Origin: Siphonodentalium dalli
Lineage: Eukaryota > Mollusca > Scaphopoda > Gadilida > Siphonodentaliidae
Assembly: GCA_032622095.1 (NCBI GenBank)
Contig: CP136061.1
Coordinates: 248,569,582-248,633,581 of the forward strand
DNA length: 64,000 bases
Reading direction: 5' to 3'
Part shown: positions 9,561 to 39,953 of the stretch, piece by piece
Layout: the number at the start of each line of letters is the position of its first letter
Position numbering within the stretch: the first letter of the stretch is position 1
Notes under the pieces: generated by a model
The model's database searches: none
Seen by the model: only the letters and a program-made list of their open reading frames with translations
What the model was told of the DNA's origin: nothing
Translations under genes and position numbers: made by a program

Positions 9561-9684
9561 AATGTTACGTTGATGAGCTCTGGCATACAGTTCAACATAC
9601 GTTGGGCACACCAAGTGATTTCTTACTAACATCACCATTGCGACCATTGTCCTACATGAGACATTAACTACCATATTCTAAAGT

Positions 9685-9713
<29 letters not shown>
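9685..9713. repeat. (TA)n microsatellite at the inverted-repeat centre
   Basis: About 29 bp of alternating TA between the two arms of the large inverted repeat. Such a run at a palindrome centre is prone to cruciform extrusion and slippage. Confidence 0.9.
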
Positions 9714-9716
<3 letters not shown>

Positions 9717-9717
9717 C

Positions 9718-11360: not shown

Positions 11361-12373
11361 GTAGGTGTGGATTTATCCTGACAATAATGCTCACTGATGT
11401 TAAAATCAGTGATTTTCGGCGATTTTTATTTCTGGTGGCCATTTTGGCCGCCATCTTAGATTAGGGTGAATATTTCTCAACTCAGGTATAAGAGGAATCC
11501 TAGTTCGACTATCTCCTGCACATATATATATGCATGGGTGTTGTTATGATAGCAATAACATTCATTGATTCGAAACATTACATCACGTTATTAGCGTTGA
11601 TTCGGCTTTGACCTATTATACCGGCATTTGGGAAAACGTGATAACGGACAAATATATCCCACAATGAATGTATATTATGGTCCCCATGTCTTCGCCAATG
11701 ACACTTCTATACGATAAATGTATAACATCATGCCAAAATGCCAATATTTTCCCACAGAGACAAACGAAAGGTTGTGAAATGTCAGAAAAATAGCATATTT
11801 TCAGATTTCGGCGGCCATCTTGGCCGCCATATTGGATTCTGTTGTCGGATTTTTGGCTAATTTGTAAGGGTTTTATATTAGCATAACGAATCGAGCGGAA
11901 AACAAGACCGCATGTGATATCATCTTTACTATAACGGCGAGCAAAGAGACCTGGTGCATATACAAAAAAATGGCCACCATGATGGACGCCATCTTGTCTG
12001 GAGTCTCTGCGGCCACTTTTTTTTCTTGTTATCAAGTGAAAAGAATTAGAGGAGACATTAAGAAAGAAAATTAGTGGGGTGAAGTTGAGTCATGGGGGTG
12101 CAGAGGTTGACCAATATCTCCTGGACTATACGGATCAAGTTCGATTTTGGGTTCCGTCCGTCTATTTTCACCAGAGTCACTATGAAGTTACGGACCTTTT
12201 TCGACTTTGAATTTCATGTTTTCTTGGTTTCCGGATGGTAACTGCAGTAACTTTTAGGCTTCCCAACTCACCGATTATGGAATCGTTCTGAAATGCAATT
12301 TGAAACAAACGAATAGCGTACTGTGCTACGTCTGTGCTATTGTCATGGCTATCAATGATGGAACGAGGCATCT
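11361..12373. repeat. Degenerate AAGATGGCGGCC-type units and flank of the array
   Basis: Cores of GGCCATTTTGGCCGCCATCTT (about 11436), GGCGGCCATCTTGGCCGCCAT (about 11810) and GGCCACCATGATGGACGCCA (about 11970) recur with spacer sequence between them, continuing the composition of the inverted-repeat arms. From about 12040 to 12373 the sequence is unrelated, with GGGTTCCGTCCGTC and a non-coding stretch that ends at the TTCA bordering the array. No gene recognised. Confidence 0.6.
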
Positions 12374-12378
12374 TTCAG

Positions 12379-12827
12379 GTTACACACAACTAATTATTTC
12401 CCATAGGCGACAATACTAACGTTTGTATCATTTGTGCTGAAACTGGACCTATTTTCACCAAAACCTCATACTGAGCATGAAGTGGGTCTCAAGCCTGATA
12501 AATTCATACCATGAAACGGACAGGTTTCGGTATTTTTTCCCATTCAAATTTCACCGCTTCCCTGACTACCGAAGGTTCGCAGTAAATTCACAGCTATAAA
12601 AAACACACTACCACAAATTTCTACTTGTGGTCAAATGGACACAATATTCAGCAGGCCCACAAACACCATGCATTTTTTTGTACAGCAGCTTAATTCTATT
12701 ATTTATTTATGTATTTATATTGTCAACATAATGCACCAATCAGTGGCCATGGGATGATTTTTATCTGATTCTAGTTTCCCTACACAATTTCAGGAAGCAT
12801 AACTCTATTGAATTAGTTGTGTGTAAC
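12379..12827 (+). mobile_element. TIR element E, copy 1 (array left edge)
   Basis: A 449-bp element with perfect 17-bp inverted termini GTTACACACAACTAATT / AATTAGTTGTGTGTAAC. Here the terminus is preceded by G, giving GGTTAC, and by TTCA (12374-12377). The right end is followed by C then TATA, which is the start of body B. It has no coding capacity. It resembles a MITE, and a diverged full-length solo relative lies at 33094-33544. Because its left base is G while the five other array copies have A, this left edge probably belongs to a separate E insertion from the one carried inside the amplified unit (inference). Confidence 0.85.
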
Positions 12828-13749
12828 CTATAGCTCACTGAAGATCAAGAGAAATCAACCCAATTTTTTACTGATGTTTTGCTATGAACATTTCCTTCTT
12901 ATTAAAATATATATCAATTTTCATCCATCAATCTGTGTTGAATTATTTACAATGAAGTGACATACCCGTATTCAAAATAAACCAGGGTTGAATCGTCTGA
13001 TCCCAGACATGACGCGTTCAAATTATTCAGCGTCTCTAGCTACTAAGGGGACAGGAAACTCAATAGTCCATTATTTCAGGTCAACTGATATATGTTTATG
13101 TGAATTACATGTTAATACAAGTTGGGAAGTCAACATTAACCCTATTGCAGCCATAAATGTTAACCCTTTGGTTTTTGAAGAATATTAACACAAAAACATT
13201 TAGTAAATTTTGCATATAACTGTCATTTATGTATATAATCTGAACAGCATCATTGGAAAAAGATCAGTTATATAGGCATATGTATACGCATAATTATCAC
13301 AATGAGGAATCCAACCTTTCCGGTATGAGCAATCGTTAACCATTGACCACCAATTCCAGAAAATGGATAATTCAGCTGAGGCTGCCTCAGTAAAGAGGTG
13401 AATTCAGTTCAGTGGGTCACTTTAAAACTCTGAGACTCAATAGTTTCTGTTGCAGCACATCTTCACCTGCAAAGTTACAATGAAAACCAATGGTTTATCT
13501 ATACACAGAATCTGATAATTTGATCAGTTTTGTTTGACACTTAAAATTTATTGGGAAATTTGGCAGTAGGCACAGAGTTAATATAAACAATTCTATTAAT
13601 TGTGCCCAGAACTAACATTTGATTCCAACACACACACACAGCATTTCATATACCCTCAGAACCTAGTTACCTTTAGTTGATATAAAGTTCATACATTTCA
13701 TGGAAAAAGGTTGGATTTCTTACTATGTGATTCATCATTTCTGGACAAA

Positions 13750-15886
13750 ATGGGCAAAATGAGCACAGAGAGGACATACACTGGTCGATTCAGATTCAGT
13801 AATAAAGTTGGTTTTAAACCTGGACATCAGTTAAGTTCTAAACAGAAAAATTCACCAGCTACACAATTAAAGAGAAAATGTTCCAAAATAATTAACCCTT
13901 TGACTGCCAATGGTTGTGAAAACATAACAACCAACACAATGAACACACCAGACAGAGGAATCATGACAAGATCCAGATGCTGTCAACCCAAGAATCGAGA
14001 TCAATTTAGTTCCCCATTAGGAAAACAAAGGTATGTGTCATGTGTCTATAAAGCTATATTTTAATATAGATGCACTACTTAAAAGCTGGCTATGGTTCAA
14101 ACAGCCCATTGACTGTAAACAGAACATATAAGCATGTATCCTTGAATTGAATAACAGTTAAATGCTAGGGGTTAAATGATTCCACTATAACTTTTAAGAG
14201 ATGCTAAAATATGCATCGGATATAATGATCAAAGAAATTGGTCTGAGAATTGTTATTTAACCCTTCTCCACCAATATGAAGGGGCATAATTTCCCAATAA
14301 AGTATTTGGCAGTGTGAGGGTTAAACATCAGACCTGTAGTGGTGCTAGGGGCTTCATTTATTGAAAATACAGCCCCTTACAACACATCCTATATTTTAAA
14401 TGGTTACAGTAAAATTAAATAAGGCGGGTTTTACATTAATCACACAAGCCGGGGGGGGGGGTGTATTTGCAGGTAAAAAAATATACTGCGTGAGATTGAT
14501 CAAATTTTGTTAGATTTCAATGTCTTAAAGAGGTCCATTTTGCCCTTTTCAGGTATGGGTCGCAACGAATATCTCTATCTACATGGGAAAGGGAGAGCGA
14601 CTCATATCGTACAGTTCATGTACGCCTAAATGCTGCGATGTGGAATACTGCATTTAAAGAACATCATGCCTCGCATCCAATTTGTGAAGGGTTCCTCCAT
14701 TCGGATATGAATTCCGAGGAAGCGAGAGGAGTCGGGTGTCGACAAAAAATGGTGTGTGATAAATGCAAATACAAATCAAGTATGTTCACCTTGTTCGAGG
14801 AGGTCCCGACTAAGAGACCAGGTCGACGTAGCGGAAAGCCAAATCTTGGGTTAGCAATAGGTCTTGGTAAAACACCAATAGCAGCACACAGCTTCCGTCG
14901 CATTTGTCTCAGCTCTAATATCCCAGCACCGTCTGCTCATGGCCTGCAGAAAACATCAAATAAGGTTCTCGTAAAGATTGTGGAAGAAAATAAGGCAGAT
15001 ATGGTGAAACGACGTTCACGTCTTATATCGAATCAAAGGCATATGGGCAAAATGAACCCACATGTTATCGATGTTCAAGGCGATGCCATGTACAATAACA
15101 GTATTTATTCCGGTGTGGGGAAAAATCCCTTCCAACCTGCGACTCAATCAATTTATACTGTGGCAGAGAATGTGACAAAAGACCATGACATTATTGGACT
15201 CGCTATCCATAACAAGTTGTGTTCGAAAGGACATCATCTCAAAGCAGCACCGAATCATGAGTGTTTCAAAGGCGACTGCTATGCTACGATACCTTTCGAA
15301 CACAACATTGGTGACGAAAAGGCTCTCGCGAAAGAGGTTCTCACTAATCTTAAAGATACAAGTGGAATTCAGGTTGAGAACATTACCACAGATCCTGACT
15401 GTGCGAGTTACTTGGCGGATCAGGAACTATTTGAAGATGACGTGACTAATGTTCAACCTTTTCATCAATTAGACACGACCCATGTTTCCCGAAATCATCG
15501 GAAATTTGTAAAAAATCACAAATATCTCATTTTCGAGGAATGTTTTTGGGCGTGCACACTCAATGGTGCACTCGGTTAATTGTGGAACAGCGAATTCTAT
15601 AAGGGACTTATGTGAACATGTTGGTTGTCCCATTACCAGCGGGAGTAAAGTCGATCGGTCTCTTAACAGCTATCAGAAGGCAGAAAATAACCGAAAGAAG
15701 CGAAAGAAGAAGTTAACTGTTAAAAAGATAAGAGTAAACAGGAGAGAAACGCTGTACAAACTTCACGCAGAACATCAGGAGGAGCGATTGTATGAAAAGA
15801 ATAAGCTTTTGCCTCAAAATAAAGAGAAAATAGAACATGGCTATAGCAAATTCCATGAGGGGCGAAGGGTTAACAGGAAAAAATGA
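13750..15886 (+). pseudogene. Mutator-like transposase, unit 1, frameshifted in exon 2
   Basis: Same two-exon structure as the intact copies: exon 1 at 13750-14030, intron 14031-14552 with GTATGT donor and TTTTCAG acceptor, exon 2 from 14553. Exon 1 is open. In exon 2 an extra base near 15541 (AATGTTTTTGGG instead of AATTTTTTGGG) shifts the frame. Reading stops at 15579, and the rest of the C-terminal region continues in another frame to 15886. The lost part includes the basic KKRKKK segment. Unit 1 also has private changes: FLHSD for FLHWD, RQKMV for RHKMV, GLGKTP for GLSKTP and LADQE for LAAQE. It is therefore the most diverged copy. See the unit 4 entry for function. Confidence 0.8.
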
Positions 15887-15928
15887 ACACAAATATATGT
15901 ATATATATTATATGCACCTCTTGGAAAC

Positions 15929-16317
15929 TTATATAATGCATTCTGGTGAACACCCTAAACATTGTTCCAAGCTTCGGCATCTAATTCGTTGCTGGTTATG
16001 GAGATGGCTTTCAAATATCAAGTGCGCTATATTGATACAGGCCCTCTCTCCACACAAGTGACTACACTCGAGACTCTCCGGGCCACCATATACAGGAACT
16101 TGGTCCATTGACAACCGATTCTGGATCATATAATTCAAGCGGTGTGTTGGCTGTGTAGCTGAATCATGTTCTCTTTTCCATATTTCTGGCCAAGTCACTC
16201 TCATCTTCCCATATCCATCACTATCTTTGCTACCTTTCCATAAATGACACCCCCACCCCCCTGAATTTCGGTTTTCTCATAAAGCCTGCGATTATACTCA
16301 TAGTAGAAATACTCCAT
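15929..16317 (-). CDS. His-Me finger (HNH) endonuclease, unit 1, split over two frames
   Basis: Counterpart of the unit 4 gene at 28041-28429. The ATG is at 16317-16315, the G-run is the same as in the other copies, and the nuclease frame ends at 15929. All cysteine, histidine and asparagine positions discussed for unit 4 are retained, including SHLC, the HNQQR asparagine and the C-terminal Cys set. The gene is convergent with the transposase pseudogene of the same unit. Whether a functional protein is made depends on how the frame change at the G-run is resolved. Confidence 0.7.
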
Positions 16318-16414
16318 TTTATTATTTTAACCTTTATTGAAGTTATCCAATGAACTACAGCTTTAAATTTTGGGAATATAGCATTCTTGAAATGGACACC
16401 ATCTGTAGCTATAA

Positions 16415-16863
16415 GTTACACACAACTAATTATTTCCCATAGGCGACAATACTAACGTTTGTATCATTTGTGCTGAAACTGGACCTATTTTCACCAAAAC
16501 CTCATACTGAGCATGAAGTGGGTCTCAAGCCTGATAAATTCATACCATGAAACGGACAGGTTTCGGTATTTTTTCCCATTCAAATTTCACCGCTTCCCTG
16601 ACTACCGAAGGTTCGCAGTAAATTCACAGCTATAAAAAACACACTACCACAAATTTCTACTTGTGGTCAAATGGACACAATATTCAGCAGGCCCCCAAAC
16701 ACCATGCATATTTTTGTACAGCAGCTTAATTCTATTATTTATTTATGTATTTATATTGTCAACATAATGCACCAATCAGTGGCCATGGGATGATTTTTAT
16801 CTGATTCTAGTTTCCCTACACAATTTCAGGAAGCATAACTCTATTGAATTAGTTGTGTGTAAC
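16415..16863 (+). mobile_element. TIR element E, copy 2
   Basis: A 449-bp copy flanked by TATA on both sides (16410-16413 and 16865-16868), with A in place of the outer G at the left end. Its body neighbours read ...TGTAGC-TATA on the left and TATA-GCTCACTG on the right, so removal of E and one TATA restores one continuous sequence. This is the signature of E having inserted into B with a 4-bp target duplication. Confidence 0.85.
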
Positions 16864-17785
16864 CTATAGCTCACTGAAGAGCAAGAGAAATCAACCCAAT
16901 TCTTTACTGATGTTTTGCTATGAACATTTCCTTCTTATTAAAATATATATCAATTTTCATCCATCAATCTGTGTTGAATTATTTACAATGAAGTGACATA
17001 CCCGTATTCAAAATAAACCAGGGTTGAATCGTCTTATCCCAGACATGATGCGTTCAAATTATTCAGCGTCTCTAGCTACTAAGGGGACAGGAAACTCAAT
17101 AGTCCATTATTTCAGGTCAACTGATATATGTTTATGTGAATTACATGTTAATACAAGTTGGGAAGTCAACATTAACCCTATTGCAGCCATAAATGTTAAC
17201 CCTTTGGTTTTTGAAGAATATTAACACAAAAACATTTTGTAAATTTTGCATATAACTGTCATTTATGTATATAATCTGAACAGCATCATTGGAAAAAGAT
17301 CAGTTATATAGGCATACGTATACGCATAATTATCACAATGAGGAATCCAACCTTTCCGGTTTGAGCATTCGTTAACCATTGACCACCAATTCCAGAAAAT
17401 GGATAATTCAGCTGAGGCTGCCTCAGTAAAGAGGTGAATTCAGTTCAGTGTGTCACTTTAAAACTCTGAGACTCAATAGTTTCTGTTGCAGCACATCTTC
17501 ACCTGCAAAGTTACAATGAAAACCAATGGTTTATCTATACACAGAATCTGATAATTTGATAAGTTTTGTTTGACACTTAAAATTTATTGGGAAATTTGGC
17601 AGTAGGCACAGAGTTAATATAAACAATTCTATTAATTGTGCCCAGAACTAACATTTGATTCCAACACACACACAAAGCATTTCGTATACCCTCAGAACCT
17701 AGTTACCTTTAGTTGATATAAAGTTCATACATTTCATGGAAAAAGGTTGGATTTCTTACTATGTGATTCATCATTTCTGGACAAA

Positions 17786-19923
17786 ATGGGCAAAATGAGC
17801 ACAGAGAGGACATACACTGGTCGATTCAGATTCAGTAATAAAGTTGGTTTTAAACCTGGACATCAGTTAAGTTCTAAACAGGACAATTCACCAGCTACAC
17901 AATTAAAGAGAAAATGTTCCAAAATAATTAACCCTTTGACTGCCAATGGTGGTGAAAACATAACAACCAACACAATGAACACACCAGACAGAGGAATCAT
18001 GACAAGATCCAGATGCTGTCAACCCAAGAATCGAGATCAATTTAGTTCCCCATTAGGAAAACAAAGGTATGTGTCATGTGTCTATACAGCTATATTTTAA
18101 TATAGATGCACTACTTAAAACCTGGCTATGGTTCAAACAGCCCATTGACTGTAAACAGAACATATAAGCATGTATCCTTGAATTGAATAACAGTTACATG
18201 CTAGGGGTTAAATGATTCCACTATAACTTTTAAGAGGTGCTAAAATATGCATCGGATATAATGATCAAAGAAATTGGTCTGAGAATTGTTATTTAACCCT
18301 TCTCCACCAATATGAAGGGGCATAATTTCCCAATAAAGTATTTGGCAGTGTGAGGGTTAAACATCAGACCTGTAGTGGTGCTAGGGGCTTCATTTATTGA
18401 AAATACAGCCCCTTACAACACATCCTATATTTTAAATGGTTACAGGAAAATTAAATAAGGCGGGTTTTACATTAATCACACAAGCCGGGGGGGGGGGGTG
18501 CATTTGCAGGTAAAAAAATATACTGCGTGAGATTGATCAAATTTTGTTAGATTTCAATGTCTTAAAGAGGTCCATTTTGCCCTTTTCAGGTATGGGTCGC
18601 AACGAATACCTCTATCTACATGGGAAAGGGAGAGCGACTCATATCGTACAGTTCATGTACGCCTAAATGCTGCGATGTGGAATACTGCATTTAAAGAACA
18701 TCATGCCTCGCATCCAATTTGTGAAGGGTTCCTCCATTGGGATATGAATTCCGAGGAAGCGAGAGGAGTCGGGTGTCGACACAAAATGGTGTGTGATAAA
18801 TGCAAATACAAATCAAGTATGTTCACCTTGTTCGAGGAGGTCCCGACTAAGAGACCAGGTCGACGTAGCGGAAAGCCAAATCTTGGGTTAGCAATAGGTC
18901 TTAGTAAAACACCAATAGCAGCACACAGCTTCCGTCGCATTTGTCTCAGCTCTAATATCCCAGCACCGTCTGCTCATGGCCTGCAGAAAACATCAAATAA
19001 GGTTCTCGTAAAGATTGTGGAAGAAAATAAGGCAGATATGGTGAAACGACGTTCACGTCTTATATCGAATCAAAGGCATATGGGCAAAATGAACCCACAT
19101 GTTATCGATGTTCAAGGCGATGCCATGTACAATAACAGTATTTATTCCGGTGTGGGGAAAAATCCCTTCCAACCTGCGACTCAATCAATTTATACTGTGG
19201 CAGAGAATGTGACAAAAGACCATGACATTATTGGACTCGCTATCCATAACAAGTTGTGTTCGAAAGGACATCATCTCAAAGCAGCACCGAATCATGAGTG
19301 TTTCAAAGGCGACTGCTATTCTACGATACCTTTCGAACACAACATTGGTGACGAAAAGGCTCTCGCGAAAGAGGTTCTCACTAATCTTAAAGATACAAGT
19401 GGAATTCAGGTTGAGAACATTACCACAGATCCTGACTGTGCGAGTTACTTGGCGGCTCAGGAACTATTTGAAGATGACGTGACTAATGTTCAACCTTTTC
19501 ATCAATTAGACACGACCCATGTTTCCCGAAATCATCGGAAATTTGTAAAAAATCACAAATATCTCATTTTCGAGGAATGTTTTTGGGCGTGCACACTCAA
19601 TGGTGCACTCGGTTAATTGTGGAACAGCGAATTCTATAAGGGACTTATGTGAACATGTTGGTTGTCCCATTACCAGCGGGAGTAAAGTCGATCGGTCTCT
19701 TAACAGCTATCAGAAGGCAGAACATAACCGAAAGAAGCGAAAGAAGAAGTTAACTGTTAAAAAGATAAGAGTAAACAGGAGAGAAACGCTGTACAAACTT
19801 CACGCAGAACATCAGGAGGAGCGATTGTATGAAAAGAATAAGCTTTTGCCTCAAAATAAAGAGAAAATAGAACATGGCTATAGCAAATTCCATGAGGGGC
19901 GAAGGGTTAACAGGAAAAAATGA
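17786..19923 (+). pseudogene. Mutator-like transposase, unit 2, frameshifted in exon 2
   Basis: Exon 1 is at 17786-18066 (open) and exon 2 from 18590. It shares with unit 1 the extra base (AATGTTTTTGGG near 19578), which truncates the frame at 19616. The C-terminal part remains open in another frame to 19923. Otherwise it is like units 3-5 (FLHWD, RHKMV, GLSKTP, LAAQE). A private change gives AEHNRKK for AENNRKK. The shared frameshift shows that units 1 and 2 share history, through duplication or conversion. Confidence 0.8.
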
Positions 19924-19965
19924 ACACAAATATATGTATATATATTATATGCACCTCTTGGAAAC

Positions 19966-20354
19966 TTATATAATGCATTCTGGTGAACACCCTAAACATT
20001 GTTCCAAGCTTCGGCATCTAATTCGTTGCTGGTTATGGAGATGGCTTTCAAATATCAAGTGCGCTATATTGATACAGGCCCTCTCTCCACACAAGTGACT
20101 ACACTCGAGACTCTCCGGGCCACCATATACAGGAACTTGGTCCCTTGACAACCGATTCTGGATCATATAATTCAAGCGGTGTGTTGGCTGTGTAGCTGAA
20201 TCATGTTCTCTTTTCCATATTTCTGGCCAAGTCACTCTCATCTTCCCATATCCATCACTATCTTTGTTACCTTTCCATAAATGACACCCCCACCCCCCTG
20301 AATTTCGGTTTTCTCATAAAGCCTGCGATTATACTCATAGTAGAAATACTCCAT
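19966..20354 (-). CDS. His-Me finger (HNH) endonuclease, unit 2, split over two frames
   Basis: Same as the unit 4 gene, with one visible amino-acid change (NRLSRDQ instead of NRLSMDQ) outside the predicted active site. ATG at 20354-20352, identical G-run, nuclease frame ending at 19966. Catalytic His and Asn and the zinc-ligand set are retained. Confidence 0.7.
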
Positions 20355-20451
20355 TTTATTATTTTAACCTTTATTGAAGTTATCCAATGAACTACAGCTT
20401 TAAATTTTGGGAATATAGCATTCTTGAAATGGACACCATCTGTAGCTATAA

Positions 20452-20900
20452 GTTACACACAACTAATTATTTCCCATAGGCGACAATACTAACGTTTGTA
20501 TCATTTGTGCTGAAACTGGACCTATTTTCACCAAAACCTCATACTGAGCATGAAGTGGGTCTCAAGCCTGATAAATTCATACCATGAAACGGACAGGTTT
20601 CGGTATTTTTTCCCATTCAAATTTCACCGCTTCCCTGACTACCGAAGGTTCGCAGTAAATTCACAGCTATAAAAAACACACTACCACAAATTTCTACTTG
20701 TGGTCAAATGGACACAATATTCAGCAGGCCCCCAAACACCATGCATATTTTTGTACAGCAGCTTAATTCTATTATTTATTTATGTATTTATATTGTCAAC
20801 ATAATGCACCAATCAGTGGCCATGGGATGATTTTTATCTGATTCTAGTTTCCCTACACAATTTCAGGAAGCATAACTCTATTGAATTAGTTGTGTGTAAC
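20452..20900 (+). mobile_element. TIR element E, copy 3
   Basis: A 449-bp copy with TATA on both sides and the same inverted termini as the other array copies. Confidence 0.85.
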
Positions 20901-21822
20901 CTATAGCTCACTGAAGAGCAAGAGAAATCAACCCAATTTTTTACTGATGTTTTGCTATGAACATTTCCTTCTTATTAAAATATATATCAATTTTCATCCA
21001 TCAATCTGTGTTGAATTATTTACAATGAAGTGACATACCCGTATTCAAAATAAACCAGGGTTGAATCGTCTTATCCCAGACATGATGCGTTCAAATTATT
21101 CAGCGTCTCTAGCTACTAAGGGGACAGGAAACTCAATAGTCCATTATTTCAGGTCAACTGATATATGTTTATGTGAATTACATGTTAATACAAGTTGGGA
21201 AGTCAACATTAACCCTATTGCAGCCATAAATGTTAACCCTTTGGTTTTTGAAGAATATTAACACAAAAACATTTTGTAAATTTTGCATATAACTGTCATT
21301 TATGTATATAATCTGAACAGCATCATTGGAAAAAGATCAGTTATATAGGCATATGTATACGCATAATTATCACAATGAGGAATCCAACCTTTCCGGTATG
21401 AGCATTCGTTAACCATTGACCACCAATTCCAGAAAATGGATAATTCAGCTGAGGCTGCCTCAGTAAAGAGGTGAATTCAGTTCAGTGGGTCACTTTAAAA
21501 CTCTGAGACTCAATAGTTTCTGTTGCAGCACATCTTCACCTGCAAAGTTACAATGAAAACCAATGGTTTATCTATACACAGAATCTGATAATTTGATAAG
21601 TTTTGTTTGACACTTAAAATTTATTGGGAAATTTGGCAGTAGGCACAGAGTTAATATAAACAATTCTATTAATTGTGCCCAGAACTAACATTTGATTCCA
21701 ACACACACACAAAGCATTTCGTATACCCTCAGAACCTAGTTACCTTTAGTTGATATAAAGTTCATACATTTCATGGAAAAAGGTTGGATTTCTTACTATG
21801 TGATTCATCATTTCTGGACAAA

Positions 21823-23960
21823 ATGGGCAAAATGAGCACAGAGAGGACATACACTGGTCGATTCAGATCAGTAATAAAGTTGGTTTTAAACCTGGACATC
21901 AGTTAAGTTCTAAACAGGACAATTCACCAGCTACACAATTAAAGAGAAAATGTTCCAAAATAATTAACCCTTTGACTGCCAATGGTGGTGAAAACATAAC
22001 AACCAACACAATGAACACACCAGACAGAGGAATCAATGACAAGATCCAGATGCTGTCAACCCAAGAATCGAGATCAATTTAGTTCCCCATTAGGAAAACA
22101 AAGGTATGTGTCATGTGTCTATACAGCTATATTTTAATATAGATGCACTACTTAAAACCTGGCTATGGTTCAAACAGCCCATTGACTGTAAACAGAACAT
22201 ATAAGCATGTATCCTTGAATTGAATAACAGTTACATGCTAGGGGTTAAATGATTCCACTATAACTTTTAAGAGGTGCTAAAATATGCATCGGATATAATG
22301 ATCAAAGAAATTGGTCTGAGAATTGTTATTTAACCCTTCTCCACCAATATGAAGGGGCATAATTTCCCAATAAAGTATTTGGCAGTGTGAGGGTTAAACA
22401 TCAGACCTGTAGTGGTGCTAGGGGCTTCATTTATTGAAAATACAGCCCCTTACAACACATCCTATATTTTAAATGGTTACAGGAAAATTAAATAAGGCGG
22501 GTTTTACATTAATCACACAAGCCGGGGGGGGGGGGGTGTATTTGCAGGTAAAAAAATATACTGCGTGAGATTGATCAAATTTTGTTAGATTTCAATGTCT
22601 TAAAGAGGTCCATTTTGCCCTTTTCAGGTATGGGTCGCAACGAATACCTCTATCTACATGGGAAAGGGAGAGCGACTCATATCGTACAGTTCATGTACGC
22701 CTAAATGCTGCGATGTGGAATACTGCATTTAAAGAACATCATGCCTCGCATCCAATTTGTGAAGGGTTCCTCCATTGGGATATGAATTCCGAGGAAGCGA
22801 GAGGAGTCGGGTGTCGACACAAAATGGTGTGTGATAAATGCAAATACAAATCAAGTATGTTCACCTTGTTCGAGGAGGTCCCGACTAAGAGACCAGGTCG
22901 ACGTAGCGGAAAGCCAAATCTTGGGTTAGCAATAGGTCTTAGTAAAACACCAATAGCAGCACACAGCTTCCGTCGCATTTGTCTCAGCTCTAATATCCCA
23001 GCACCGTCTGCTCATGGCCTGCAGAAAACATCAAATAAGGTTCTCGTAAAGATTGTGGAAGAAAATAAGGCAAATATGGTGAAACGACGTTCACGTCTTA
23101 TATCGAATCAAAGGCATATGGGCAAAATGAACCCACATGTTATCGATGTTCAAGGCGATGCCATGTACAATAACAGTATTTATTCCGGTGTGGGGAAAAA
23201 TCCCTTCCAACCTGCGACTCAATCAATTTATACTGTGGCAGAGAATGTGACAAAAGACCATGACATTATTGGACTCGCTATCCATAACAAGTTGTGTTCG
23301 AAAGGACATCATCTCAAAGCAGCACCGAATCATGAGTGTTTCAAAGGCGACTGCTATTCTACGATACCTTTCGAACACAACATTGGTGACGAAAAGGCTC
23401 TCGCGAAAGAGGTTCTCACTAATCTTAAAGATACAAGTGGAATTCAGGTTGAGAACATTACCACAGATCCTGACTGTGCGAGTTACTTGGCGGCTCAGGA
23501 ACTATTTGAAGATGACGTGACTAATGTTCAACCTTTTCATCAATTAGACACGACCCATGTTTCCCGAAATCATCGGAAATTTGTAAAAAATCACAAATAT
23601 CTCATTTTCGAGGAATTTTTTGGGCGTGCACACTCAATGGTGCACTCGGTTAATTGTGGAACAGCGAATTCTATAAGGGACTTATGTGAACATGTTGGTT
23701 GTCCCATTACCAGCGGGAGTAAAGTCGATCGGTCTCTTAACAGCTATCAGAAGGCAGAAAATAACCGAAAGAAGCGAAAGAAGAAGTTAACTGTTAAAAA
23801 GATAAGAGTAAACAGGAGAGAAACGCTGTACAAACTTCACGCAGAACATCAGGAGGAGCGATTGTATGAAAAGAATAAGCTTTTGCCTCAAAATAAAGAG
23901 AAAATAGAACATGGCTATAGCAAATTCCATGAGGGGCGAAGGGTTAACAGGAAAAAATGA
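21823..23960 (+). pseudogene. Mutator-like transposase, unit 3, exon 1 broken
   Basis: Exon 1 (21823-22103) has lost a base near 21868 (CAGATCAG instead of CAGATTCAG) and gained one near 22035 (ATCAATGACA instead of ATCATGACA). The intervening frame meets TAA at 21904-21906, codon 28. Exon 2 (22628-23960) is intact to the normal stop, lacks the extra base seen in units 1-2, and has a private NKANM for NKADM. Initiation at the internal methionine in exon 2 (22713) would still give 415 residues containing the DDE region but lacking the N-terminal segment. Confidence 0.8.
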
Positions 23961-24002
23961 ACACAAATATATGTATATATATTATATGCACCTCTTGGAA
24001 AC

Positions 24003-24391
24003 TTATATAATGCATTCTGGTGAACACCCTAAACATTGTTCCAAGCTTCGGCATCTAATTCGTTGCTGGTTATGGAGATGGCTTTCAAATATCAAGTGCG
24101 CTATATTGATACAGGCCCTCTCTCCACACAAGTGACTACACTCGAGACTCTCCGGGCCACCATATACAGGAACTTGGTCCATTGACAACCGATTCTGGAT
24201 CATATAATTCAAGCGGTGTGTTGGCTGTGTAGCTGAATCATGTTCTCTTTTCCATATTTCTGGCCAAGTCACTCTCATCTTCCCATATCCATCACTATCT
24301 TTGCTACCTTTCCATAAATGACACCCCCACCCCCCTGAATTTCGGTTTTCTCATAAAGCCTGCGATTATACTCATAGTAGAAATACTCCAT
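24003..24391 (-). CDS. His-Me finger (HNH) endonuclease, unit 3, split over two frames
   Basis: Same arrangement and residues as the unit 4 gene. ATG at 24391-24389, conserved G-run, nuclease frame ending at 24003. Convergent with the transposase copy, with a 42-bp gap between stop codons. Confidence 0.7.
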
Positions 24392-24488
24392 TTTATTATT
24401 TTAACCTTTATTGAAGTTATCCAATGAACTACAGCTTTAAATTTTGGGAATATAGCATTCTTGAAATGGACACCATCTGTAGCTATAA

Positions 24489-24937
24489 GTTACACACAAC
24501 TAATTATTTCCCATAGGCGACAATACTAACGTTTGTATCATTTGTGCTGAAACTGGACCTATTTTCACCAAAACCTCATACTGAGCATGAAGTGGGTCTC
24601 AAGCCTGATAAATTCATACCATGAAACGGACAGGTTTCGGTATTTTTTCCCATTCAAATTTCACCGCTTCCCTGACTACCGAAGGTTCGCAGTAAATTCA
24701 CAGCTATAAAAAACACACTACCACAAATTTCTACTTGTGGTCAAATGGACACAATATTCAGCAGGCCCCCAAACACCATGCATTTTTTTGTACAGCAGCT
24801 TAATTCTATTATTTATTTATGTATTTATATTGTCAACATAATGCACCAATCAGTGGCCATGGGATGATTTTTATCTGATTCTAGTTTCCCTACACAATTT
24901 CAGGAAGCATAACTCTATTGAATTAGTTGTGTGTAAC
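24489..24937 (+). mobile_element. TIR element E, copy 4
   Basis: A 449-bp copy with TATA on both sides. It lies between the 5' side of the unit 3 nuclease gene (- strand) and the 5' side of the unit 4 transposase gene (+ strand), so each internal E occupies the divergent intergenic region of the tandem array. Confidence 0.85.
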
Positions 24938-25859
24938 CTATAGCTCACTGAAGAGCAAGAGAAATCAACCCAATTTTTTACTGATGTTTTGCTATGAACA
25001 TTTACTTCTTATTAAAATATATATCAATTTTCATCCATCAATCTGTGTTGAATTATTTACAATGAAGTGACATACCCGTATTCAAAATAAACCAGGGTTG
25101 AATCGTCTTATCCCAGACATGATGCGTTCAAATTATTCAGCGTCTCTAGCTACTAAGGGGACAGGAAACTCAATAGTCCATTATTTCAGGTCAACTGATA
25201 TATGTTTATGTGAATTACATGTTAATACAAGTTGGGAAGTCAACATTAACCCTATTGCAGCCATAAATGTTAACCCTTTGGTTTTTGAAGAATATTAACA
25301 CAAAAACATTTTGTAAATTTTGCATATAACTGTCATTTATGTATATAATCTGAACAGCATCATTGGAAAAAGATCAGTTATATAGGCATATGTATACGCA
25401 TAATTATCACAATGAGGAATCCAACCTTTCCGGTATGAGCATTCGTTAACCATTGACCACCAATTCCAGAAAATGGATAATTCAGCTGAGGCTGCCTCAG
25501 TAAAGAGGTGAATTCAGTTCAGTGTGTCACTTTAAAACTCTGAGACTCAATAGTTTCTGTTGCAGCACATCTTCACCTGCAAAGTTACAATGAAAACCAA
25601 TGGTTTATCTATACACAGAATCTGATAATTTGATAAGTTTTGTTTGACACTTAAAATTTATTGGGAAATTTGGCAGTAGGCACAGAGTTAATATAAACAA
25701 TTCTATTAATTGTGCCCAGAACTAACATTTGATTCCAACACACACACAAAGCATTTCGTATACCCTCAGAACCTAGTTACCTTTAGTTGATATAAAGTTC
25801 ATACATTTCATGGAAAAAGGTTGGATTTCTTACTATGTGATTCATCATTTCTGGACAAA

Positions 25860-27998
25860 ATGGGCAAAATGAGCACAGAGAGGACATACACTGGTCGATT
25901 CAGATTCAGTAATAAAGTTGGTTTTAAACCTGGACATCAGTTAAGTTCTAAACAGGACAATTCACCAGCTACACAATTAAAGAGAAAATGTTCCAAAATA
26001 ATTAACCCTTTGACTGCCAATGGTGGTGAAAACATAACAACCAACACAATGAACACACCAGACAGAGGAATCATGACAAGATCCAGATGCTGTCAACCCA
26101 AGAATCGAGATCAATTTAGTTCCCCATTAGGAAAACAAAGGTATGTGTCATGTGTCTATACAGCTATATTTTAATATAGATGCACTACTTAAAACCTGGC
26201 TATGGTTCAAACAGCCCATTGACTGTAAACAGAACATATAAGCATGTATCCTTGAATTGAATAACAGTTACATGCTAGGGGTTAAATGATTCCACTATAA
26301 CTTTTAAGAGGTGCTAAAATATGCATCGGATATAATGATCAAAGAAATTGGTCTGAGAATTGTTATTTAACCCTTCTCCACCAATATGAAGGGGCATAAT
26401 TTCCCAATAAAGTATTTGGCAGTGTGAGGGTTAAACATCAGACCTGTAGTGGTGCTAGGGGCTTCATTTATTGAAAATACAGCCCCTTACAACACATCCT
26501 ATATTTTAAATGGTTACAGGAAAAATTAAATAAGGCGGGTTTTACATTAATCACACAAGCCGGGGGGGGGGGGGTGTATTTGCAGGTAAAAAAATATACT
26601 GCGTGAGATTGATCAAATTTTGTTAGATTTCAATGTCTTAAAGAGGTCCATTTTGCCCTTTTCAGGTATGGGTCGCAACGAATACCTCTATCTACATGGG
26701 AAAGGGAGAGCGACTCATATCGTACAGTTCATGTACGCCTAAATGCTGCGATGTGGAATACTGCATTTAAAGAACATCATGCCTCGCATCCAATTTGTGA
26801 AGGGTTCCTCCATTGGGATATGAATTCCGAGGAAGCGAGAGGAGTCGGGTGTCGACACAAAATGGTGTGTGATAAATGCAAATACAAATCAAGTATGTTC
26901 ACCTTGTTCGAGGAGGTCCCGACTAAGAGACCAGGTCGACGTAGCGGAAAGCCAAATCTTGGGTTAGCAATAGGTCTTAGTAAAACACCAATAGCAGCAC
27001 ACAGCTTCCGTCGCATTTGTCTCAGCTCTAATATCCCAGCACCGTCTGCTCATGGCCTGCAGAAAACATCAAATAAGGTTCTCGTAAAGATTGTGGAAGA
27101 AAATAAGGCAGATATGGTGAAACGACGTTCACGTCTTATATCGAATCAAAGGCATATGGGCAAAATGAACCCACATGTTATCGATGTTCAAGGCGATGCC
27201 ATGTACAATAACAGTATTTATTCCGGTGTGGGGAAAAATCCCTTCCAACCTGCGACTCAATCAATTTATACTGTGGCAGAGAATGTGACAAAAGACCATG
27301 ACATTATTGGACTCGCTATCCATAACAAGTTGTGTTCGAAAGGACATCATCTCAAAGCAGCACCGAATCATGAGTGTTTCAAAGGCGACTGCTATGCTAC
27401 GATACCTTTCGAACACAACATTGGTGACGAAAAGGCTCTCGCGAAAGAGGTTCTCACTAATCTTAAAGATACAAGTGGAATTCAGGTTGAGAACATTACC
27501 ACAGATCCTGACTGTGCGAGTTACTTGGCGGCTCAGGAACTATTTGAAGATGACGTGACTAATGTTCAACCTTTTCATCAATTAGACACGACCCATGTTT
27601 CCCGAAATCATCGGAAATTTGTAAAAAATCACAAATATCTCATTTTCGAGGAATTTTTTGGGCGTGCACACTCAATGGTGCACTCGGTTAATTGTGGAAC
27701 AGCGAATTCTATAAGGGACTTATGTGAACATGTTGGTTGTCCCATTACCAGCGGGAGTAAAGTCGATCGGTCTCTTAACAGCTATCAGAAGGCAGAAAAT
27801 AACCGAAAGAAGCGAAAGAAGAAGTTAACTGTTAAAAAGATAAGAGTAAACAGGAGAGAAACGCTGTACAAACTTCACGCAGAACATCAGGAGGAGCGAT
27901 TGTATGAAAAGAATAAGCTTTTGCCTCAAAATAAAGAGAAAATAGAACATGGCTATAGCAAATTCCATGAGGGGCGAAGGGTTAACAGGAAAAAATGA
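25860..27998 (+). CDS. Mutator-like (MULE-type) DDE transposase, two exons, intact (unit 4)
   Basis: Join 25860-26140 with 26666-27998, 537 codons. The ATG has a good context (ACAAAATGG). Donor AAAG|GTATGT and acceptor CCCTTTTCAG|G join a split AG|G codon in phase, and exon 2 is open in that frame through 28 codons before its first ATG. The N-terminus is short and basic (RTYTGRFRFSNKVGFKPGH). A WNTAF-EHH segment, a C-x5-C-x2-C knuckle (about residues 156-165) and a PAPS-x-GLQK block follow. Then comes DVQGDAMYNN with Asp 267/271, a Cys/His-rich insert (317-336), TTDPD with Asp 374/376, a DTTH motif (401-404) and a basic tail (about 473-493) that may be a nuclear signal. This order matches Mutator-like transposase proteins common in aquatic invertebrates (recalled, not searched). 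It is expected to cut DNA at element ends. The catalytic Glu is not assigned with confidence. Confidence 0.8.
26367..26434. repeat. TTAA-bounded 68-bp inverted-end segment in the transposase intron
   Basis: The intron contains TTAACCCTTCTCC ... GTGTGAGGGTTAA, a short segment with CCCT/AGGG ends inside TTAA. It occurs in all five units. It resembles a tiny piggyBac-type MITE, but the inverted match is short, so chance is possible. A G-run of variable length (about 10-13 G between units) lies further on in the same intron, near 26563. Confidence 0.35.
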
Positions 27999-28040
27999 AC
28001 ACAAATATATGTATATATATTATATGCACCTCTTGGAAAC

Positions 28041-28429
28041 TTATATAATGCATTCTGGTGAACACCCTAAACATTGTTCCAAGCTTCGGCATCTAATTCG
28101 TTGCTGGTTATGGAGATGGCTTTCAAATATCAAGTGCGCTATATTGATACAGGCCCTCTCTCCACACAAGTGACTACACTCGAGACTCTCCGGGCCACCA
28201 TATACAGGAACTTGGTCCATTGACAACCGATTCTGGATCATATAATTCAAGCGGTGTGTTGGCTGTGTAGCTGAATCATGTTCTCTTTTCCATATTTCTG
28301 GCCAAGTCACTCTCATCTTCCCATATCCATCACTATCTTTGCTACCTTTCCATAAATGACACCCCCACCCCCCTGAATTTCGGTTTTCTCATAAAGCCTG
28401 CGATTATACTCATAGTAGAAATACTCCAT
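28041..28429 (-). CDS. His-Me finger (HNH-type) endonuclease, split over two frames (unit 4)
   Basis: Read on the - strand. ATG at 28429-28427 (AAAATGG context) opens MEYFYYEYNRRLYEKTEIQ and then enters a G-run (CAGGGGGGTGGGGGTGT). The nuclease region lies in the -1 frame: CHLWKGSKDSDGYGK, then from the internal Met at 28316 a 91-residue stretch to the stop. Counting from that Met: SHLC with His 49, Cys 51, Cys 56, His 61, Asn 70, Cys 76, Cys 82, Cys 85 and Cys 89. I-PpoI has His98, Cys100, Cys105, His110, Asn119 and Cys125, the same spacing, plus a second zinc cluster at nearly the same distance. The I-PpoI Cys41 equivalent would be the Cys of CHLWKG, which lies upstream of the internal Met, so the full fold needs the upstream frame. 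Total length with one -1 shift would be 129 residues. Alternatives are a short upstream exon or simple decay. The product would be a Zn-dependent DNA endonuclease. Confidence 0.75.
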
Positions 28430-28526
28430 TTTATTATTTTAACCTTTATTGAAGTTATCCAATGAACTACAGCTTTAAATTTTGGGAATATAGCATTCTT
28501 GAAATGGACACCATCTGTAGCTATAA

Positions 28527-28975
28527 GTTACACACAACTAATTATTTCCCATAGGCGACAATACTAACGTTTGTATCATTTGTGCTGAAACTGGACCTAT
28601 TTTCACCAAAACCTCATACTGAGCATGAAGTGGGTCTCAAGCCTGATAAATTCATACCATGAAACGGACAGGTTTCGGTATTTTTTCCCATTCAAATTTC
28701 ACCGCTTCCCTGACTACCGAAGGTTCGCAGTAAATTCACAGCTATAAAAAACACACTACCACAAATTTCTACTTGTGGTCAAATGGACACAATATTCAGC
28801 AGGCCCCCAAACACCATGCATTTTTTTGTACAGCAGCTTAATTCTATTATTTATTTATGTATTTATATTGTCAACATAATGCACCAATCAGTGGCCATGG
28901 GATGATTTTTATCTGATTCTAGTTTCCCTACACAATTTCAGGAAGCATAACTCTATTGAATTAGTTGTGTGTAAC
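28527..28975 (+). mobile_element. TIR element E, copy 5
   Basis: A 449-bp copy with TATA on both sides and the same termini as the other array copies. Confidence 0.85.
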
Positions 28976-29897
28976 CTATAGCTCACTGAAGAGCAAGAGA
29001 AATCAACCCAATTTTTTACTGATGTTTTGCTATGAACATTTCCTTCTTATTAAAATATATATCAATTTTCATCCATCAATCTGTGTTGAATTATTTACAA
29101 TGAAGTGACATACCCGTATTCAAAATAAACCAGGGTTGAATCGTCTTATCCCAGACATGATGCGTTCAAATTATTCAGCGTCTCTAGCTACTAAGGGGAC
29201 AGGAAACTCAATAGTCCATTATTTCAGGTCAACTGATATATGTTTATGTGAATTACATGTTAATACAAGTTGGGAAGTCAACATTAACCCTATTGCAGCC
29301 ATAAATGTTAACCCTTTGGTTTTTGAAGAATATTAACACAAAAACATTTTGTAAATTTTGCATATAACTGTCATTTATGTATATAATCTGAACAGCATCA
29401 TTGGAAAAAGATCAGTTATATAGGCATATGTATACGCATAATTATCACAATGAGGAATCCAACCTTTCCGGTATGAGCATTCGTTAACCATTGACCACCA
29501 ATTCCAGAAAATGGATAATTCAGCTGAGGCTGCCTCAGTAAAGAGGTGAATTCAGTTCAGTGTGTCACTTTAAAACTCTGAGACTCAATAGTTTCTGTTG
29601 CAGCACATCTTCACCTGCAAAGTTACAATGAAAACCAATGGTTTATCTATACACAGAATCTGATAATTTGATAAGTTTTGTTTGACACTTAAAATTTATT
29701 GGGAAATTTGGCAGTAGGCACAGAGTTAATATAAACAATTCTATTAATTGTGCCCAGAACTAACATTTGATTCCAACACACACACAAAGCATTTCGTATA
29801 CCCTCAGAACCTAGTTACCTTTAGTTGATATAAAGTTCATACATTTCATGGAAAAAGGTTGGATTTCTTACTATGTGATTCATCATTTCTGGACAAA

Positions 29898-32033
29898 ATG
29901 GGCAAAATGAGCACAGAGAGGACATACACTGGTCGATTCAGATTCAGTAATAAAGTTGGTTTTAAACCTGGACATCAGTTAAGTTCTAAACAGGACAATT
30001 CACCAGCTACACAATTAAAGAGAAAATGTTCCAAAATAATTAACCCTTTGACTGCCAATGGTGGTGAAAACATAACAACCAACACAATGAACACACCAGA
30101 CAGAGGAATCATGACAAGATCCAGATGCTGTCAACCCAAGAATCGAGATCAATTTAGTTCCCCATTAGGAAAACAAAGGTATGTGTCATGTGTCTATACA
30201 GCTATATTTTAATATAGATGCACTACTTAAAACCTGGCTATGGTTCAAACAGCCCATTGACTGTAAACAGAACATATAAGCATGTATCCTTGAATTGAAT
30301 AACAGTTACATGCTAGGGGTTAAATGATTCCACTATAACTTTTAAGAGGTGCTAAAATATGCATCGGATATAATGATCAAAGAAATTGGTCTGAGAATTG
30401 TTATTTAACCCTTCTCCACCAATATGAAGGGGCATAATTTCCCAATAAAGTATTTGGCAGTGTGAGGGTTAAACATCAGACCTGTAGTGGTGCTAGGGGC
30501 TTCATTTATTGAAAATACAGCCCCTTACAACACATCCTATATTTTAAATGGTTACAGGAAAATTAAATAAGGCGGGTTTTACATTAATCACACAAGCCGG
30601 GGGGGGGGGTGTATTTGCAGGTAAAAAAATATACTGCGTGAGATTGATCAAATTTTGTTAGATTTCAATGTCTTAAAGAGGTCCATTTTGCCCTTTTCAG
30701 GTATGGGTCGCAACGAATACCTCTATCTACATGGGAAAGGGAGAGCGACTCATATCGTACAGTTCATGTACGCCTAAATGCTGCGATGTGGAATACTGCA
30801 TTTAAAGAACATCATGCCTCGCATCCAATTTGTGAAGGGTTCCTCCATTGGGATATGAATTCCGAGGAAGCGAGAGGAGTCGGGTGTCGACACAAAATGG
30901 TGTGTGATAAATGCAAATACAAATCAAGTATGTTCACCTTGTTCGAGGAGGTCCCGACTAAGAGACCAGGTCGACGTAGCGGAAAGCCAAATCTTGGGTT
31001 AGCAATAGGTCTTAGTAAAACACCAATAGCAGCACACAGCTTCCGTCGCATTTGTCTCAGCTCTAATATCCCAGCACCGTCTGCTCATGGCCTGCAGAAA
31101 ACATCAAATAAGGTTCTCGTAAAGATTGTGGAAGAAAATAAGGCAGATATGGTGAAACGACGTTCACGTCTTATATCGAATCAAAGGCATATGGGCAAAA
31201 TGAACCCACATGTTATCGATGTTCAAGGCGATGCCATGTACAATAACAGTATTTATTCCGGTGTGGGGAAAAATCCCTTCCAACCTGCGACTCAATCAAT
31301 TTATACTGTGGCAGAGAATGTGACAAAAGACCATGACATTATTGGACTCGCTATCCATAACAAGTTGTGTTCGAAAGGACATCATCTCAAAGCAGCACCG
31401 AATCATGAGTGTTTCAAAGGCGACTGCTATGCTACGATACCTTTCGAACACAACATTGGTGACGAAAAGGCTCTCGCGAAAGAGGTTCTCACTAATCTTA
31501 AAGATACAAGTGGAATTCAGGTTGAGAACATTACCACAGATCCTGACTGTGCGAGTTACTTGGCGGCTCAGGAACTATTTGAAGATGACGTGACTAATGT
31601 TCAACCTTTTCATCAATTAGACACGACCCATGTTTCCCGAAATCATCGGAAATTTGTAAAAAATCACAAATATCTCATTTTCGAGGAATTTTTTGGGCGT
31701 GCACACTCAATGGTGCACTCGGTTAATTGTGGAACAGCGAATTCTATAAGGGACTTATGTGAACATGTTGGTTGTCCCATTACCAGCGGGAGTAAAGTCG
31801 ATCGGTCTCTTAACAGCTATCAGAAGGCAGAAAATAACCGAAAGAAGCGAAAGAAGAAGTTAACTGTTAAAAAGATAAGAGTAAACAGGAGAGAAACGCT
31901 GTACAAACTTCACGCAGAACATCAGGAGGAGCGATTGTATGAACAGAATAAGCTTTTGCCTCAAAATAAAGAGAAAATAGAACATGGCTATAGCAAATTC
32001 CATGAGGGGCGAAGGGTTAACAGGAAAAAATGA
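29898..32033 (+). CDS. Mutator-like (MULE-type) DDE transposase, two exons, intact (unit 5)
   Basis: Join 29898-30178 with 30701-32033, again 537 codons. Splice sites and phase are identical to unit 4, and the DVQGD, TTDPD and DTTH motifs are all present. The visible protein difference is YEQNK for YEKNK near the C-terminus. Two neighbouring units with full-length open genes, beside three broken ones, suggest either very recent duplication or retained selection in this part of the array. Confidence 0.8.
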
Positions 32034-32075
32034 ACACAAATATATGTATATATATTATATGCACCTCTTGGAAAC

Positions 32076-32464
32076 TTATATAATGCATTCTGGTGAACAC
32101 CCTAAACATTGTTCCAAGCTTCGGCATCTAATTCGTTGCTGGTTATGGAGATGGCTTTCAAATATCAAGTGCGCTATATTGATACAGGCCCTCTCTCCAC
32201 ACAAGTGACTACACTCGAGACTCTCCGGGCCACCATATACAGGAACTTGGTCCATTGACAACCGATTCTGGATCATATAATTCAAGCGGTGTGTTGGCTG
32301 TGTAGCTGAATCATGTTCTCTTTTCCATATTTCTGGCCAAGTCACTCTCATCTTCCCATATCCATCACTATCTTTGCTACCTTTCCATAAATGACACCCC
32401 CACCCCCCTGAATTTCGGTTTTCTCATAAAGCCTGCGATTATACTCATAGTAGAAATACTCCAT
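32076..32464 (-). CDS. His-Me finger (HNH) endonuclease, unit 5, split over two frames
   Basis: Same as the unit 4 gene. ATG at 32464-32462, conserved G-run, nuclease frame ending at 32076, with all predicted zinc ligands and the catalytic His and Asn present. Only the final E (32562-33010) lies upstream of it before unique sequence begins. Confidence 0.7.
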
Positions 32465-32561
32465 TTTATTATTTTAACCTTTATTGAAGTTATCCAATGA
32501 ACTACAGCTTTAAATTTTGGGAATATAGCATTCTTGAAATGGACACCATCTGTAGCTATAA

Positions 32562-33010
32562 GTTACACACAACTAATTATTTCCCATAGGCGACAATACT
32601 AACGTTTGTATCATTTGTGCTGAAACTGGACCTATTTTCACCAAAACCTCATACTGAGCATGAAGTGGGTCTCAAGCCTGATAAATTCATACCATGAAAC
32701 GGACAGGTTTCGGTATTTTTTCCCATTCAAATTTCACCGCTTCCCTGACTACCGAAGGTTCGCAGTAAATTCACAGCTATAAAAAACACACTACCACAAA
32801 TTTCTACTTGTGGTCAAATGGACACAATATTCAGCAGGCCCCCAAACACCATGCATTTTTTTGTACAGCAGCTTAATTCTATTATTTATTTATGTATTTA
32901 TATTGTCAACATAATGCACCAATCAGTGGCCATGGGATGATTTTTATCTGATTCTAGTTTCCCTACACAATTTCAGGAAGCATAACTCTATTGAATTAGT
33001 TGTGTGTAAC
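32562..33010 (+). mobile_element. TIR element E, copy 6 (array right edge)
   Basis: A 449-bp copy preceded by TATA of body B and followed by C then TTCA (33012-33015). That TTCA matches the TTCA before copy 1. The left side of this copy therefore belongs to the amplified unit, whereas its right flank matches the left flank of the array. Confidence 0.85.
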
Positions 33011-33093
33011 CTTCAAGTTCAGGCGATGGGCGACAAATACTCACCGCAATGTGCAAGGTTGGGTTGCCCCTCTTGATTCATAGCTCGCTTTAG

Positions 33094-33544
33094 GTTACAA
33101 GCAACTAATTATATAGAGTTACGCTTCTTGAATTTGTGTAGGGAAACTTGAGTCAGCATAAAAAAAAATATCTGGCTGCTGATTGGTTGATTATCATTGA
33201 GGGAAATATCCCTAAGCGGGAACATAAAATCATAGCCTACGTAAATATGGCGATCATGCATGATTGGATGTCCAGGAAGAGTCTGGTGGGGTCCCGATGT
33301 CATGGAAGGGGTATGGGTATTTTTATGCCTCTGATATTTGTGCAGTAAATGGGGTAGTAGTGGAAATGCAAGATTATCGTTTGAAAACAATACTGAAAAG
33401 GGCGCGTTTGCCGTCACAGACTGGTGCAGCGGATGGCATTCTAAGGGAAAATTGACCACTTGAAGTTCAAATAGGCATAACCCATGGCCGGCGGGACTTC
33501 TAGTTAACACTGTCACCTATGTGAAATAATTAGGTGTTTGTAAC
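33094..33544 (-). mobile_element. Solo diverged relative of E, inverted
   Basis: A 451-bp element with termini GTTACAAGCAACTAATTAT and ATAATTAGGTGTTTGTAAC. With the outer bases it reads GGTTAC...GTAACC between direct TTTA repeats (33089-33092 and 33546-33549). In reverse orientation its end TTTCCCTACACAAATTCAAG matches the corresponding E segment TTTCCCTACACAATTTCAGG, and the opposite end (CATAGGTGACAGTGTTAAC) matches CATAGGCGACAATACTAAC. The interior is more diverged but similar in length. This shows that E is an independent mobile family and not merely part of the tandem unit. Short open frames inside it are not supported. Confidence 0.85.
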
Positions 33545-33549
33545 CTTTA

Positions 33550-37603: not shown

Positions 37604-37973
37604 TTAACCCTTTACCCAACAAACCGGCCAAAACCGGCCAAATAAAGCTTCAACAGCCTAAAATATCTTCGGTCTGTCTCAATAGAACCATACAAATATG
37701 GGTATCATTGGAACCGGCTCCTTGACCACATTGTGATAGTTACAGTTATGCCCTGTGCCAATGCATTCTCTTATATATGCGAGTCGACCATAGGCCTAAA
37801 AAAAATCTTTTTTTAACACTTTTTACCATTTTTTCTTACATTCTTTAACAATTTTATAATTTTTAATGTGTTAAGCCAATGCATTCTCTTATATATGCGA
37901 GGCGACCTATGGTCGACTCGCATATATAAGAGAATGCATTGGCACAGGGCCGTTCTGTTGGGTAAAGGGTTAA
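37604..37973. mobile_element. TTAA-flanked MITE (piggyBac-type), copy 1, inside the LINE
   Basis: Reads TTAA-CCCTTTACCCAACA ... TGTTGGGTAAAGGG-TTAA. Removing it with one TTAA rejoins the LINE sequence as ETFKMLGIEF in one frame, which proves insertion after the LINE. It carries a palindrome of about 66 bp near its right end (37873-37942) and a truncated half near 37780. The TTAA target and CCCT terminus match piggyBac habits (established for that superfamily). The second copy at 47659-48048 is almost identical. Confidence 0.85.
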
Positions 37974-38015
37974 ATGTCTCCGGATTCCAGTGTCACATAT
38001 AGTTTCTGTACAATC

Positions 38016-39816: not shown

Positions 39817-39953
39817 ATTTTGACAAGAACTCTAAGTATGTTACCAATACCGACATAGAATACAACAACAACATATATTTAAAAAAACCACATGTATGCG
39901 AAGCGCCCAGGGTGGGGTGGGGGATATACACTGAAATAACCTTCCGATCATCA

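Follow-up and report, generated by a model that had tools for sequence, protein, structure and literature searches.

The window analysed here (the whole stretch of DNA, 64 kb) contains an array at positions 12378-33011 built in alternation from a 451-bp element, E, present six times (starts at 12378, 16414, 20451, 24488, 28526, and 32561), and a segment of about 3.6 kb, B, present five times. The original prediction had described an (E-B)5-E arrangement that stops exactly at the ends of an element with terminal inverted repeats (TIRs), between two TTCA words, and this is confirmed: the outer ends, GGTTACACACAACTAATT...AATTAGTTGTGTGTAACC, form a perfect inverted repeat (18/18 bp). An array architecture of this kind has already been described in print for KolobokP, a group of animal DNA transposons with ends that are small transposons in their own right, where E corresponds to the long terminal direct repeat (LTDR) and B to the internal region (INT). 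The components are as follows:

12374..12377, no strand: left target site duplication, TTCA
12378..12828, + strand: LTDR 1 (E1), GG start, TTCA on the left and TATA on the right
12829..16413, + strand: INT 1 (B1), TATA at both ends, mosaic, left part divergent
14867..15419, no strand: mosaic switch interval of unit 1, where fixed differences from units 2-5 cease
16414..16864, + strand: LTDR 2, AG start, TATA on both sides
16865..20450, + strand: INT 2
20451..20901, + strand: LTDR 3, AG start, TATA on both sides
20902..24487, + strand: INT 3
24488..24938, + strand: LTDR 4, AG start, TATA on both sides
24939..28525, + strand: INT 4
28526..28976, + strand: LTDR 5, AG start, TATA on both sides
28977..32560, + strand: INT 5
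32561..33011, + strand: LTDR 6, AG start, TATA on the left and TTCA on the right
33012..33015, no strand: right target site duplication, TTCA

Borders, flanking words and neighbouring elements

The E copies are nearly identical (0-2 mismatches per 448 bases, first base excluded). Mismatches between B copies range from 2 to 30, with 2-4 among B3 to B5, and 42 variable columns of the unit alignment tell the units apart. Every E copy ends in GTAACC on the right. On the left, the first base is G in E1 only, which gives the GG start, and A in E2-E6, which begin AGTTAC. The inner copies E2-E5 have TATA at either side, E1 has TTCA on its left and TATA on its right, E6 the reverse, and INT 1 both starts and ends with TATA. 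Equal 4-bp flanks arose by chance in 0.57% of 20,000 random placements in the 64-kb window, and base composition gives about 0.005. Three duplicated words are found (TTCA, TATA, and the TTTA of the neighbouring element described below), and these sites support reading E as mobile, with target duplications of 4 bp.

The neighbouring element, at 33093-33545, is a 453-bp solo LTDR-like copy of a related family in opposite orientation with its own TTTA duplication, and 73 bases separate this duplication from the right TTCA of the array. Its TIRs match at 16/18 bases (counted by eye), and its similarity score to E is 331, compared with a maximum of 198 in 200 shuffles.

Other parts of the window carry repeats of other kinds. 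A 24-bp minisatellite (about 52 copies), in which several reading frames stay open, occupies 6521-7776. A large imperfect inverted repeat at 7913-11466 has 224-nt arms (8143-8366 and 10862-11085, 93%) and is possibly a long-TIR element. On the minus strand, 36138-39831 is broken and probably a non-LTR retrotransposon; it contains a reverse transcriptase match (PF00078 at 38016-38594, E 1.3e-23) and a weak zf-RVT match below cut-off at 36138-36551, both also on the minus strand. Rfam and tRNA scans of the 64-kb window gave no matches.

Transposase and nuclease frames within INT

Two kinds of reading frames were found in INT, on opposite strands:

25791..26174, + strand: candidate transposase exon 1 of unit 4, an open frame that may be read as an exon
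22575-23960, + strand: transposase exon 2-like frame of unit 3, similar to that of unit 4
26613..27998, + strand: transposase exon 2 of unit 4 (PF20700)
30648-32033, + strand: transposase exon 2-like frame of unit 5, similar to that of unit 4
15929..16276, - strand: His-Me nuclease core, unit 1
19966..20313, - strand: His-Me nuclease core, unit 2
24003..24350, - strand: His-Me nuclease core, unit 3
28041..28388, - strand: His-Me nuclease core, unit 4 (PF05551, E 1.9e-10)
32076..32423, - strand: His-Me nuclease core, unit 5

Units 1 and 4 were scanned against Pfam for the transposase, and both matched the 'Mutator-like' transposase family PF20700 on the plus strand (E 2.5e-37 and 1.4e-38, respectively). 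We infer that this model holds Kolobok enzymes. The match ends at model position 288 in unit 4 and 287 in unit 1, of 357, and the unit 4 frame carries the motif DTTH at residue 325. About 20 residues past DTTH, the frame of units 3-5 enters what we take, by related proteins, to be a putative C-terminal part; in units 1 and 2 the frame (359 aa) stops sooner after DTTH. Beyond DTTH, a zinc finger and the last catalytic residue would be expected; both appear to be missing, and with them part of the catalytic region. Cysteines are present at residues 241, 255, and 260 with histidines nearby, in an order that is not clearly CCHC. The shortened frame is common to all five units. The open frame further upstream may be exon 1 of the same gene: splice-like GTATGT and TTTTCAG follow it in 5/5 units, and all units except unit 3 have a listed frame of 100 aa or more. 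It had no Pfam match above cut-off.

The unit 4 transposase frame also contains a perfect 15-bp inverted repeat (27329-27343 and 27405-27419, arms 61 bases apart). Its counterpart in unit 1 lies within the mosaic switch interval, which may be coincidence.

The nuclease core is I-PpoI-like, with a His-Cys box, and lies on the strand opposite the transposase. In unit 4, the one unit scanned against Pfam for this frame, PF05551 was above cut-off, and residues S, H, H, E, and N stand at the KolobokP spacing in 5/5 frames. The first in-frame ATG stands only at residue 25, and sequence comparison with PDB chains gave no match up to E 10; both count against a nuclease of the KolobokP type. As a nuclease target inside the LTDR, we considered ACCACAAATTTCTACTTGTGGT, which has 8/9 half-site bases around a 4-bp centre. 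The match is weak: 16/300 shuffles of E also reach 8, and the site is absent at the aligned place in the neighbouring LTDR relative at 33093-33545.

Probable assignment to KolobokP

KolobokP elements, in the portions of the original description on which we draw (Kojima and Bao, 2022; PMC9587614), have two LTDRs of about 450 or 660 bp, each with its own TIR of up to 18 bp and RR..YY ends, and a target duplication of 3-5 bp. Their transposase is encoded on the direct strand and a His-Cys box His-Me nuclease downstream on the complementary strand, with S, H, H, E, and N at residues 97, 98, 110, 114, and 119. A C/DxxH motif is typical of Kolobok and relatives; in KolobokP a CCHC zinc finger is placed after the first D, and the catalytic region has a zinc finger and a last E following the D..H motif. 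The group includes nonautonomous families, and multimers of the form (LTDR-INT)n-LTDR with target duplications outside are reported. In KolobokP-1_MeMe, INT starts and ends with TATA and a single TATA stands at INT-INT junctions, which are attributed there to LTDR or monomer excision. For the growth of multimers, the same portions give unequal exchange between flanking LTDRs and entry of an LTDR-INT circle into a resident LTDR (model 5b), as models awaiting experiment.

The array corresponds to this description in most respects. All six LTDRs are 451 bp long with RR..YY ends, and their TIRs match at 18/18 bases in E1 and in the outer ends and at 17/18 in the five other copies. TTCA is duplicated outside the array and TATA around the four inner LTDRs, and five units stand in multimer form with the target duplications outside. 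The transposase lies on the direct strand (PF20700, with DTTH as its C/DxxH motif) and the nuclease on the complementary strand (PF05551 in unit 4, S-H-H-E-N in 5/5 units). A solo LTDR relative lies nearby, and TATA at the start and end of INT is as in KolobokP-1_MeMe (PMC9587614, in part). Two differences stand against these likenesses: the catalytic region, which in KolobokP has a zinc finger and last E after D..H, appears incomplete here, and the mosaic unit 1 switches inside INT, whereas the multimer models printed in the portions drawn on place exchange in the LTDRs. Putative membership in KolobokP is thus supported by anatomy. New here are the TATA-flanked inner LTDRs, the shortened transposase, and the mosaic unit 1. 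An LTR retrotransposon was rejected on the Pfam results for five scanned frames of the unit, none of which matched a reverse transcriptase.

Searches for relatives in two contig collections gave no second KolobokP sequence for comparison. For the transposase, 3 pattern-matching stretches in viral_contigs and 22 in genome_contigs were found, none confirmed, and for the nuclease 3 in viral_contigs, again none confirmed. The left-end pattern of E and a pattern common to E and the neighbouring element each had 0 matches in viral_contigs, and a stretch of the neighbouring element alone had 0 in genome_contigs. In our literature search, the term KolobokP was met in PMC9587614 only.

Bacterial composite transposons, compared with KolobokP in the same source (PMC9587614, in part), likewise have ends that are mobile alone and outer ends that carry the middle. 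They differ in that the transposase here lies in the middle and not in the ends, and the window reads as eukaryotic. In maize Ac/Ds, the paired elements are neighbours by accident, whereas the paired architecture characterises KolobokP as a family. What maize macrotransposons and alternative transposition have in common with the array, in the portions of the two sources cited, is that the termini of two nearby elements cooperate (PMC9910405, PMC4270019).

The mosaic unit 1 and the probable growth of the array

Fixed substitutions at 23 sites (six gap columns left out) set unit 1 apart from every one of units 2-5; in the 4040-column alignment, 22 of them lie no further right than column 2493 and the remaining one is at column 3046. 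The changepoint is significant with all 23 sites (permutation p 0.0008) and with INT sites only (20/21 on the left, p 0.0013). A low mutation rate on the right side is an unlikely reason, since unit 2 has private changes over its full length, seven in all, with three beyond 3300. We simulated array growth with exchange either confined to LTDRs or allowed anywhere. With a fixed left-cluster criterion, the first simulation did not separate the two models (1/150 qualifying runs with LTDR-only exchange versus 4/339 with exchange anywhere, from 2999 and 2467 five-unit runs, respectively). The second simulation used the changepoint statistic, chosen after seeing the result of the first, with more mutations and three settings pooled; a switch this strong was seen in 0/182 qualifying runs under LTDR-only exchange and in 27/112 under exchange anywhere, from 698 and 259 five-unit runs of 3600 each. 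Given the mosaic changepoint and the second simulation, at least one exchange or conversion probably occurred inside INT, at 14867-15419 (about 2.5-3.0 kb into unit 1). Exchange among units 2-5 is hinted at by single sites: unit 3 agrees with unit 2 at 297 and 2910, with units 4 and 5 in the 3169 length difference, and with unit 1 at 1038.

The fixed substitutions of unit 1 (12378-15419) include 12/23 A-C/G-T changes, compared with 44/149 in nine other repeat pairs hand-picked from the repeats of the window (p 0.05; transversions as a whole, p 0.08). Against an assumed transversion share of 0.4 the p-value is 0.004; the share of the window itself is 0.49.

Taken together, we consider it very probable that the array is a five-unit (pentameric) insertion of a KolobokP-type DNA transposon, formed by insertion of a monomer at TTCA and subsequent recombinational expansion. 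An LTDR-INT-LTDR monomer would have moved whole, with the left terminus of the first LTDR and the right terminus of the second serving as transposon ends; the ends and flanks suggest that this insertion duplicated TTCA. The repeats would then have recombined out of register, by unequal exchange, conversion, or capture of an LTDR-INT circle, as in the models in print, and expansion to five units would have left the outer ends and TTCA intact. The mosaic supports at least one exchange or conversion having fallen inside INT. Units 2-5 would then be young, and the left 2.5 kb would represent the old edge; shortening of the transposase probably preceded expansion, since the shortened frame is common to the five units. 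The original prediction took the coincidence of array ends and element borders as a surprise; it is weaker than claimed, because whenever the two direct repeats within a monomer recombine, the product is (E-B)n-E bounded by element ends and the original duplication, which removes the puzzle. Its composite transposon using the outermost TIRs fits the E-B-E monomer, and the unequal exchange and circle entry that it proposed coincide with the KolobokP models in the portions drawn on (PMC9587614), while movement of all 20.6 kb is unneeded.

Several observations bear on how expansion took place. Under unequal exchange, the right LTDR should supply the left part of each inner LTDR. The bases agree with this: positions 1 and 282 are A and C in E2-E6, and G and A in E1 alone. 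The same E1-specific bases are expected of a resident left end into which one or more extrachromosomal LTDR-INT circles entered by homologous recombination, the resident being a solo LTDR or a monomer at TTCA. The TATA-TATA frame of the inner LTDRs suggests that the end and start of INT adjoined before an LTDR separated them, as neighbours around one LTDR in a circle or a tandem, and the route is printed as model 5b (PMC9587614, in part). Capture of circles is nevertheless a possibility that we regard as rather unlikely: unequal exchange yields the same E pattern without a circle, and after a single crossover in INT the right edge would be expected to retain resident-type sequence as well, whereas past column 3046 INT 5 and INT 1 are alike except for a single substitution and a single length difference. 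The end products of chromatid exchange and circle capture are much alike. The right edge of the array has no divergent tract, and such one-sided divergence is allowed but not predicted by the expansion model, and counts against it.

Two further explanations concern the array as a whole. Its construction elsewhere and movement to TTCA as a 20.6-kb composite through the outermost TIRs would agree with the position of the sole GG-start left end at the left edge, with AG in the five others and GTAACC at all right ends; yet monomer insertion and expansion explain the same ends, the GG...CC pair is also present in E1 alone or in a monomer, and the units carry a shortened transposase frame, although transposase supplied by another source could act. 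We regard such a movement as highly improbable. That an assembler produced the unit number or the array ends seems quite improbable as well: ends that match TIRs and an exact duplication are not expected from an assembler, and 42 variable columns separate the units, even if the 2-4 mismatches among B3 to B5 are hard for short reads. Haplotype switching in the assembly is a possible source of the unit 1 mosaic.

A more speculative reading, which we consider improbable, is that the array is a selfish tandem repeat that expands independently of its own transposase, the frame of which is shortened in all units, with breaks made by a His-Me nuclease and repaired from a shifted partner adding LTDR-INT units. 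The nuclease could come from the array itself or from another copy. With the expected sequence AGC-TATA-GCT (a 10-bp palindrome), an INT-INT junction could be one cutting site, its four central bases being such that they match the TATA duplication of the LTDR; in the semi-palindrome scan of that junction it is weak and falls outside the five best.

Under the preferred reading of monomer insertion and recombinational expansion, an odd array is identified as a published transposon architecture, and one KolobokP multimer is added in which at least one exchange event can be located, inside INT. The gain is modest, and it bears on how KolobokP multimers grow; since the units share the shortened frame, this growth may not need the array's own transposase.
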